From Thermomonas sp. (GTDB taxonomy: Bacteria; Pseudomonadota; Gammaproteobacteria; Xanthomonadales; Xanthomonadaceae), in the NCBI RefSeq assembly GCF_029945965.1, contig NZ_JAQSDO010000015.1, positions 1,057,952 to 1,121,951 on the forward strand: a DNA stretch of 64,000 bases, written 5' to 3'. The translations under genes and the position numbers were made by a program. The notes below the pieces were generated by a model. The model worked only from the letters and a program-made list of their open reading frames with translations, was not told the DNA's origin and searched no databases. Positions 42,669-44,872 of this stretch are shown one piece after another (position 1 is the stretch's first letter; each line of letters begins with the position of its first letter).

Positions 42669-43724
42669 TTGTATTCGCTCGCCCGTCCCTTCCTGTTCGC
42701 GTTCAACGCCGAGCGAGCGCATGCGCTCGCACTGGTGTCGCTGGAGGCGGCTTATCGCAGCGGGGTGAACCCGCTGCTAGCCACAACTGCGAAACCGTTG
42801 CCGACCAAGGCCTTCGGCCTGACCTTCGCCAACCCGGTCGGGTTGGCGGCAGGCATGGACAAGAACGGCGCGCATATCGATGCGCTGATGGCATTGGGTT
42901 TCGGATTCGTCGAAATCGGCACCACCACCCCGCGCCCGCAACCGGGCAACCCGAAGCCGCGTATGTTCCGCCTGCCCAAACAGCAGGCGGTGATCAATCG
43001 TCTTGGCTTCAACAACCTGGGCGTGGATGCGCTGGTGCGCAATGTCGAGCGCGCCAAGCGCACACGCGCATTGCTTGGTATCAACATCGGCAAGAATAAG
43101 GACACCGCCAACGAGGATGCCGCCAGCGATTACCTGCATTGCCTGGAACGCGTGTATCCGCTGGCCGACTACATCACCATCAACATTTCCTCGCCGAACA
43201 CCGCCGGCCTGCGTGAGCTGCAGGAGGAACAGGCACTACGGCGCCTGGTCGGCACCCTGCGTGAGGCGCAGGAACGGCTCGGTTCGCAGCATGGCAAGCG
43301 GGTACCGATGCTGGTCAAGATCGCACCCGACCTGTCGGACAACGACATCGATGCCGCCGGTCGCGTGCTTGGTGACCTCGGCGTGGATGGGGTGATCGCC
43401 GGCAATACCACCATCTCGCGCGAAGGCCTGGAAGGCGTGCGGCATGCCGATGAAGTCGGCGGTCTGTCCGGTGCGCCATTGATGGCCAGGTCCACCGCGG
43501 TTTTGCGGATGCTGCGCACGCGTCTGCCGGAACACATCCCGCTGATCGGTGTGGGCGGCATCCTGCATGGCGCCGATGCCGCAACCAAGCAGGCAGCCGG
43601 CGCCATTTTGGTTCAGACCTATACCGGTCTGGTCTACCGCGGCCCGGCCCTGATCGGCGAATGCGTGGAAGCACTGCGCCGGCGCAAGGAAGCCCCAAGC
43701 CGCGGGACCCTGCTGCCTGAATGA
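42669..43724 (+). CDS. pyrD: Dihydroorotate dehydrogenase, quinone-type (class 2)
   Basis: Oxidises dihydroorotate to orotate in pyrimidine synthesis, passing electrons to quinone at the inner membrane. The 351-residue protein has the class 2 N-terminal membrane-contact helix ([20 protein letters not shown]), [12 protein letters not shown], the catalytic-Ser segment [14 protein letters not shown], and the FMN-binding [13 protein letters not shown] near the end. It starts with TTG at 42669, the only start that keeps the conserved N-terminus. The stop overlaps the murB start by 4 nt, so murB is translationally coupled. Confidence 0.96.
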
Positions 43725-44578
43725 CCGACACGTCGAACAGCGCGTCGACTGCGGCGTATCGCATCCATGAGGATGCGCGGTTGGAGGCGCGCAACACCTT
43801 CGGGATCGCTGCGACCGCGCCGATGCTGATCGAAGTCAACGACAGCGCTGCCCTGCCCGAATTGTTCGGTTACGCAATGCTGCGCGATGGGCCAGTGCTG
43901 GTACTTGGCGGCGGCAGCAACCTGCTGTTCGCAGGCGATCCGCAAGGTGTCGTACTTGCGCTGACCGCACAACGGATCGCCATCATTGAAGACGATGGCG
44001 AGACCGCAGTCGTGCGTGCCGATGCTGGCGTGAGCTGGCACGACCTGGTGTTGTGGACGCTGGGCCACAGGCTGTGCGGTCTGGAAAACCTGGCCCTGAT
44101 TCCCGGCACCGTCGGCGCGGCACCGATCCAGAACATCGGCGCGTATGGCGTGGAAGTGCGTGACTGCATCCATGCAGTGGACGCCTTCGACCGACGCGGT
44201 GGCAGCATGATCCAGCTGGACAACGATGCCTGCGCCTTCGCTTACCGCGATAGCCTGTTCAAACGCGATCCCGAGCATTACGTGGTGACCGCAGTGGAGT
44301 TCGTGTTGTCGCGCACGCCCGCGTTGAAACTGGACTACGCCGGTATCGGTGATGAACTGCAGGCGATGGGCATCGACACACCGCGCGCATCACAGGTCGC
44401 CGAAGCGGTGATCCGCATCCGCCAGCGCAAGCTGCCGGATCCGAATGTGCTGGGCAATGCCGGCAGCTTCTTCAAGAATCCCATCGTCGCTTTCGATGTC
44501 GCCGAGGCATTGCTGGCCCAACACCCATCGATGCCGGTGTTCCGTGTAAAACCGGGGTCAGAGTCGCCTTTTTCTTAA
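43721..44578 (+). CDS. murB: UDP-N-acetylenolpyruvoylglucosamine reductase MurB, cut short by a palindromic insertion
   Basis: MurB reduces UDP-GlcNAc-enolpyruvate to UDP-MurNAc with NADPH and FAD, an essential step of peptidoglycan synthesis. The 285-codon frame has the FAD-binding domain ([27 protein letters not shown]) and the catalytic Ser249 in [10 protein letters not shown]. After residue 275 the frame enters a 57-bp inverted-repeat insertion and stops at TAA (44576-44578). The rest of MurB lies beyond in the same frame (to 44848). With the insertion removed, the protein reads [13 protein letters not shown] and would have 356 residues, a normal length. The catalytic Glu near the C-terminus is lost from this product, so it should be inactive alone. 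Coupled to pyrD by a 4-nt overlap. Confidence 0.85.
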
Positions 44579-44603
44579 AATGGCGACTCTGACCCCGGTT
44601 TTA
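44547..44603. repeat. 57-bp perfect inverted repeat inserted in murB (REP-like element)
   Basis: Two 22-nt arms (44547-44568, TAAAACCGGGGTCAGAGT..., and 44582-44603, its exact reverse complement) flank a 13-nt A/T-rich loop. The GGGGTCAGAGTC core resembles the ends of REP elements moved by REP-associated tyrosine transposases. The length is a multiple of three. No clear target-site duplication was found. The stem would be very stable in the murB mRNA. No second copy was noticed in this window. Confidence 0.85.
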
Positions 44604-44848
44604 TCACCGGCACGCGCAAGCTGTCCGCCGCATGGCTGATCGATCAATGCGGCTGGAAAGGGCATCGCGACCAGGATGGCGAAGGCGATGCCGGCGTTTC
44701 CGAATCACATGCGCTGGTGCTGGTCAACCACGGCCATGCCAGCGGCGCGCAACTGCTCGACCTCGCCCGCCGCATCGCCGCATCCGTGCACGCGCGCTTC
44801 GGCGTGGCGATCGAACCCGAGCCGCGCATCATTGGTGCGAGCTGGTGA
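44579..44848 (+). pseudogene. murB: Detached C-terminal part of MurB
   Basis: In frame with murB but after the insertion's TAA stop. From 44612 it encodes the complete MurB C-terminal domain: [19 protein letters not shown] (substrate-binding), [10 protein letters not shown], and the final [15 protein letters not shown] with the conserved catalytic Glu, stopping at TGA 44846-44848. It has no obvious start codon or ribosome-binding site of its own. It is either dead or supplied by re-initiation or readthrough. Confidence 0.8.
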
Positions 44849-44872
44849 GTACAATTTCTTGAGCATGGCCCG

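Follow-up and report, generated by a model that had tools for sequence, protein, structure and literature searches.

Palindromes that lie in frame within bacterial genes are already known, as RPEs and as intragenic REPs (PMC3733652 and PMC2229807, in the portions that bear on them). In one of these portions a guanylate kinase carrying an RPE is reported to be translated and active, with a changed affinity (PMC2229807). In another, the recB genes of X. campestris and X. oryzae are reported to carry distinct REPs at nearly one and the same position (PMC3733652). The terminal repeats of TIRYT elements, as described in the corresponding part of Di Nocera et al. 2013 (PMC3733652), share the motif GGGGWSAS, which is restated in a passage of PMC6006769.

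Here we describe a 57-bp palindrome within murB of Thermomonas sp. The window is the whole stretch of DNA that was analysed, 64,000 nt in length. As assembled, the hairpin tip of the palindrome contains a TAA that is in frame with murB. We consider it rather probable that this is a translated in-frame linker palindrome, with a TAA that is mostly absent from living cells or very recent. Short GGGGTCAG-type copies that lie in frame in Thermomonas and its relatives, at recurring linkers including that of MurB, are new as far as the literature searched goes, and no report of such elements in Thermomonas was found in that literature.

The murB palindrome

The palindrome occupies positions 44547-44603 and starts after murB codon 275. 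A first, sequence-only reading of the window had placed it there, as two exact arms of 22 nt each around a loop of 13 nt, and these coordinates were reproduced (Table 1). That reading had also described a protein ending in ten foreign residues and a stop. This agrees with the assembled open reading frame, in which residues 276-285 are encoded by the element and are followed directly by the TAA.

Table 1. Features of the interrupted murB gene, in window coordinates.
Feature	Position	Strand	Remarks
murB, N-terminal part as assembled	43721..44578	+	285 codons, TAA inside the element; FAD_binding_4; PRK00046 3-265/343
Left arm	44547..44568	+	contains GGGGTCAG, GGGGWSAS-type
Loop, 13 nt	44569..44581	.	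exact-arm geometry and RNA fold
TAA at the hairpin tip, in frame with murB	44576..44578	+	reading frame
Right arm	44582..44603	+	exact reverse complement of the left arm
Rest of murB, C-terminal part	44579..44849	+	same frame, 89 codons and a stop; MurB_C; PRK00046 265-338/343

RNA folding of positions 44530-44620 gave -60.5 kcal/mol (z = -10.95), a value equalled by 0 of 200 shuffles. Inverted repeats with arms of at least 14 nt and loops of at most 45 nt numbered just 21 in 864 kb of the genome, the window included. The ends of the palindrome are TAAAACC/GGTTTTA. A GTAG tetranucleotide at one end, as in GTAG REPs, was absent, and since the TAA closes the frame through the murB copy, it lacks the open frame seen in RPEs.

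Repeat family and transposase

The genome contained 20 exact matches to the pattern GGGGTCAGAGTC and 0 to its reversed form. Paired hairpins of the form GGGGTCAGAG..CTCTGACCCC were found 36 times in this genome (reversed control 0), and at least one was present in 15 of 25 Thermomonas genomes, namely this one and 24 others placed in the genus. Two types could be told apart. Long-type cores measured about 70-76 nt and were mostly intergenic or overlapping gene ends, and short-type cores measured 41-52 nt.

A tyrosine transposase ORF with the motif NHVHLL (C15:266209-266997) lies in a cluster of GGGGTCAG-family repeats. Its 3′ end is inside a GGGGTCAGAGTCGAC hairpin and a further GGGGTCAGAGTCGAC copy is near its other end; the copies nearest to it are long-type or single, and none is identical to the murB copy. 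The ORF matched PF01797 with 54.9 bits (cut-off 23) and the NCBIfam model REP_Tyr_transpos with 67.8 bits, under the cut-off of 80. Three features of TIRYT elements were thus found: GGGGWSAS, as GGGGTCAG on both arms, a repeat-flanked tyrosine transposase and many dispersed copies. The likeness of the core to REP/RAYT ends, which had been noticed from the sequence alone, was borne out by the GGGGWSAS-type arms, the associated transposase and the TIRYT-like repeats. A second tyrosine transposase gene of this genome (L083, C15:810004-810765) lies amid GTAGAGCGGGGCTTGCCCCGC-like repeats of the GTAG type, beside a run of Ns.

Short hairpins inside genes

In Thermomonas, 18 short hairpins were found in 7 genomes. 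Ten of them lay deep in genes and in frame: in murB and thiL of this genome; in priA, an FPP-synthase gene, a YoaA/DinG-type helicase gene and a DUF3106 gene of G022; in an Lhr-type helicase gene of G001; in thiL of both G024 and G017; and in priA of G004. Nine of these were open, murB being the sole exception. The other 8 were scored as intergenic or at gene boundaries. A RecC-like protein (named by eye) also carries an open in-frame copy. The peptides KAGSESPFPRKGDSDPAF (priA, G022) and KVGSESPFETKGDSDPTF (YoaA/DinG-type helicase, G022) and that of murB are read in the same frame, from elements with the same 13-nt loop length.

Family-wide, 128 short hairpins were fetched, fewer than were counted (from G181, the first few of 28), and five at contig edges were unscorable. 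Twelve of the 123 scorable hairpins lay well inside genes and in frame; 11 of these were open and one, that in murB, had a stop. Before manual adjustment, scoring by script had given 26 genic hairpins, 14 of them in frame, with 11 of the 14 open. L212, L213 and L307 were set aside as gene boundaries (in L307 the stop precedes the element), and L204, whose downstream coding score was below the filter, was added by hand. The coding score was trained on just eight ORFs of the window, and frame-shifted and stop-bearing cases were scored too. Another 12 genic hairpins were flagged as out of frame, and nine of them look like gene boundaries: in L250, L253, L258, L301, L302 and L303 the upstream frame meets a stop immediately ahead of the element or where it starts, and L267, L317 and L291 were judged so by eye. 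The rest were L266, L322 and L328. Outside Thermomonas the fetched copies lay mostly outside coding sequence, several of them directly past a stop codon.

Taken together, 21 of 22 in-frame copies were open, a proportion that is biased, since open sister copies were found partly because they are open. The 21 include two long-type copies of this genome, in scpB and icmF, as well as copies found by gene alignment, namely that in murB of G071, a genome of another genus, and seven more in priA, some of which come from other palindrome families. That the insertion itself must destroy murB, as the sequence-only reading implied, is not supported, given the open in-frame sisters in thiL, priA, FPP synthase and the helicases, and also that in G071 MurB.

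Long-type repeats of this genome were seen in frame in the ScpB tail (L199:1425-2162) and in an IcmF-like protein (L194:915-3101), where at least two insert regions could be made out by eye. Nested coding palindromes, in which parts of the arms are duplicated symmetrically (KVGSA-KVGSES..DSDPTF-ADPTF), occurred at L209:3075-3117 and L248:1501-1543. Their form suggests arm-templated hairpin growth.

Linkers of priA, thiL and murB

Palindromes with arms of at least 13 nt occupied the priA linker in 9 of the 21 Thermomonas genomes in which the whole linker was visible, and the thiL linker in 3 of 22 Thermomonas genomes. Those in priA belonged to differing families (GGGGTCAGAGTCGCC, GGGGTCGGAGTCGCC with both arms changed, GGGGTCAGGTTCAC, GGGGTCAGAGTCAC and GGGGACGGAGGGAATTAAG). 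PriA of G009, G017 and the window's genome has GGGGACGGAGGGAATTAAG or, in the last, a variant of it (L376, L364, L383), where relatives have GGGGTCAG. Apparent decayed copies in PriA and ThiL persist as readable peptide. In thiL of G011 (L340), an apparent decayed palindrome persists as a longer linker peptide. The linkers of priA, thiL and murB have thus each been struck more than once, by different palindromes.

The stretch of murB from GSFF to KLSA measured 168 nt here. Of 27 measured relatives, 21, all congeneric, had 117 nt; the remaining 6 had 114 nt, and these include a single congeneric genome, G003. It had been claimed that the 57 bp could be removed in frame. The length of the element is indeed a multiple of three, but the net gain over most same-genus relatives is 51 nt, so about two linker codons were either lost or already absent. 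The closest named genome in one scan was Thermomonas sp. S9, with 72% MurB identity. The element was found in the murB linker at 0 of the 109 MurB loci searched by motif, three of which had a one-sided match elsewhere. In those of the 109 loci that show the GSFF motif, the longest arms of any inverted repeat near the site were 10 nt. No in-frame stop was found among the best MurB matches listed, which give no base rate since the window's own MurB lay outside them.

In murB of G071, arms of the form GGGGTCAGGGTCCC..GGGATCCTGACCCC lie between PVF and KLSAAW, in frame and open. That a GGGGTCAG palindrome occupies the corresponding position of MurB there, with the frame kept open, argues that this linker is able to accommodate an insert of the kind; the murB insertion here would then be tolerated as well. 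G071 comes close to a relative with the insert translated as part of MurB, which the sequence-only reading would have counted against a broken gene, but its palindrome is not the same 57 bp.

Translational bypass is known from phage T4 gene 60 and from the yeast mitochondrial byps. A stable hairpin with a stop within an essential gene could point to a similar case, in which ribosomes skip the hairpin and the element is never translated. However, the 21 other known in-frame copies are open, and the apparent decayed copies in PriA and ThiL have stayed readable, which skipping does not require. We regard this explanation as scarcely likely.

Integrity of MurB

The two pieces of MurB abut on PRK00046 (Table 1), so the protein is interrupted and otherwise undamaged. 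FAD_binding_4 and MurB_C are both present but are split by the stop, and the assembled sequence therefore gives no MurB in one chain. The MurB_C match falls mostly after the stop, in line with the earlier statement that the truncated ORF has lost the C-terminal domain. The C-terminal piece aligned with residues 258-332 of PDB chain 1mbb_A, which is E. coli MurB, with the catalytic Glu325 inside the aligned range.

The whole genome (20 contigs, rated 100% complete) gave one match to MurB_C and one to the MurB protein. A second murB, one of the explanations offered by the sequence-only reading, was therefore searched for genome-wide and none was found. MurB_C was present in 384 of 390 genomes of the family and in 347 of the 347 of good quality. 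An ORF truncated ahead of most of MurB_C would fit a plain knock-out, murB being a pseudogene and another gene supplying the activity, but the single matches in this genome and the near-universal presence of the domain in the family speak against it, and we find it hardly credible. A functional split enzyme, also proposed earlier, is unlikely, since downstream of the stop the murB frame contains no ORF of at least 60 aa that starts from ATG, GTG or TTG.

For the C-terminal part, dN was 0.059 and dS 0.59 between the window and G001, and the control pair G001 and G009 gave 0.051 and 0.538. The corresponding controls for the N-terminal part were left out, as their 363 columns took in sequence lying 5′ of the start codon. 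By these rates the C-terminal part of murB is still constrained and shows no decay. This lack of decay counts against a further possibility, that the stop is real and the strain or population does without full MurB, either through muramic acid salvage, a route of the AmgK/MurU type, or through the presence of other cells whose allele is intact. No recoding would be needed in that case, and the sequenced sample may be mixed, but we hold it to be very unlikely.

When the TAA was read as Gln, AlphaFold predicted a confident MurB (mean pLDDT 86.1, pTM 0.84). Runs of at least three residues with pLDDT below 50 were confined to residues 1-7 and 281-294, and the insert was modelled as a low-confidence loop between two strands.

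The in-frame stop

Against an error, the murB contig crosses the element without Ns. By eye, the tip TT-CTT-AA consists of two pairs and three bases, as do CC-CTC-GG and CG-AAA-CG in the 13-nt loops of sisters. Because it shares their pattern, the tip appears natural and not a random error. Inversion of the loop by the assembler was rejected as the cause of the stop, since the reversed loop still has an in-frame TAA. On the other side, assemblies tend to falter at these hairpins. In a sister hairpin of this genome with a GTCGCC arm (L187, C12:99233-99273), ten Ns in the loop mark a scar of assembly. The priA contig of G010 seems to start within the right arm, and 4 of the 7 hairpins in G242 lay no more than 30 nt from the end of a contig. 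The thiL gene of G008 (L360) has one internal in-frame TGA where there is no palindrome, so an assembled stop is not necessarily genuine.

Readthrough of UAA is usually low, and no suppressor tRNA was found among the 11 tRNAs of the 864 kb scanned, about 27% of the genome. The other deep-in-gene copies that were found, in a sample biased to open copies, have no stop. These observations weigh against a TAA that is real and fixed, with hairpin-helped readthrough or recoding yielding enough MurB. Its favour comes from the single murB in a genome rated complete, the intact and constrained C-terminal part, the natural look of the tip and a report, in the relevant part of PMC7918605, of in-frame stops under purifying selection in bacteria. 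We consider this explanation unlikely. The broader claim, that a fixed TAA is overridden in translation by readthrough or skipping and that an essential enzyme is made solely via recoding at a mobile hairpin, seems to us unlikely as well.

We prefer the reading as a translated linker palindrome. A short, near-perfect palindrome of the GGGGTCAG family, presumably moved by tyrosine transposases of the RAYT/TIRYT type, would have been inserted as 57 bp, in frame, into the variable linker of MurB. It would be translatable in the frame used, like its sisters, and would add about 19 residues, predicted by the fold model to form a floppy loop. The TAA would then be the sole gene-breaking feature. Since the part downstream of it is still constrained, it is most likely an assembly or consensus error at the tip, a minority variant or very young, and probably not a fixed, long-standing feature.

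Comparison with known systems

In-frame palindromes in essential genes imply that mobile hairpins can seed new linker sequence while the host survives. Should the murB stop be real, the locus offers a natural test of how recoding works at a hairpin within an essential gene. Should it be an error, the case warns that false pseudogenes can arise at hairpin tips in assemblies.

The bypass elements of T4 gene 60 and byps share with the murB copy a hairpin and a stop within a gene. Unlike in those systems, skipping is unnecessary here, since the sisters are open and in frame. Nematomorpha mitochondria, according to the part of PMC6649704 that treats them, also have perfect inverted repeats within transcribed and translated genes; in that system the two arms each code for conserved protein segments, whereas the murB palindrome adds foreign linker residues.

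RPEs and intragenic REPs, as portrayed in the portions cited above, are likewise palindromes in frame within conserved genes. They belong to other sequence families and hosts and form in-frame fusions, in contrast to the stop in the murB copy. The TIR repeats of TIRYT elements share several features with the present family: GGGGWSAS, long inverted repeats in many copies, dimers and clusters, and repeats of the same kind flanking a tyrosine transposase gene (PMC3733652, in its treatment of these repeats). The intragenic repeats described in that treatment are of the GTAG and CGTC kinds and not TIR (PMC3733652). Unlike in that account, the short form here lies in frame inside genes, with one copy bearing a stop.
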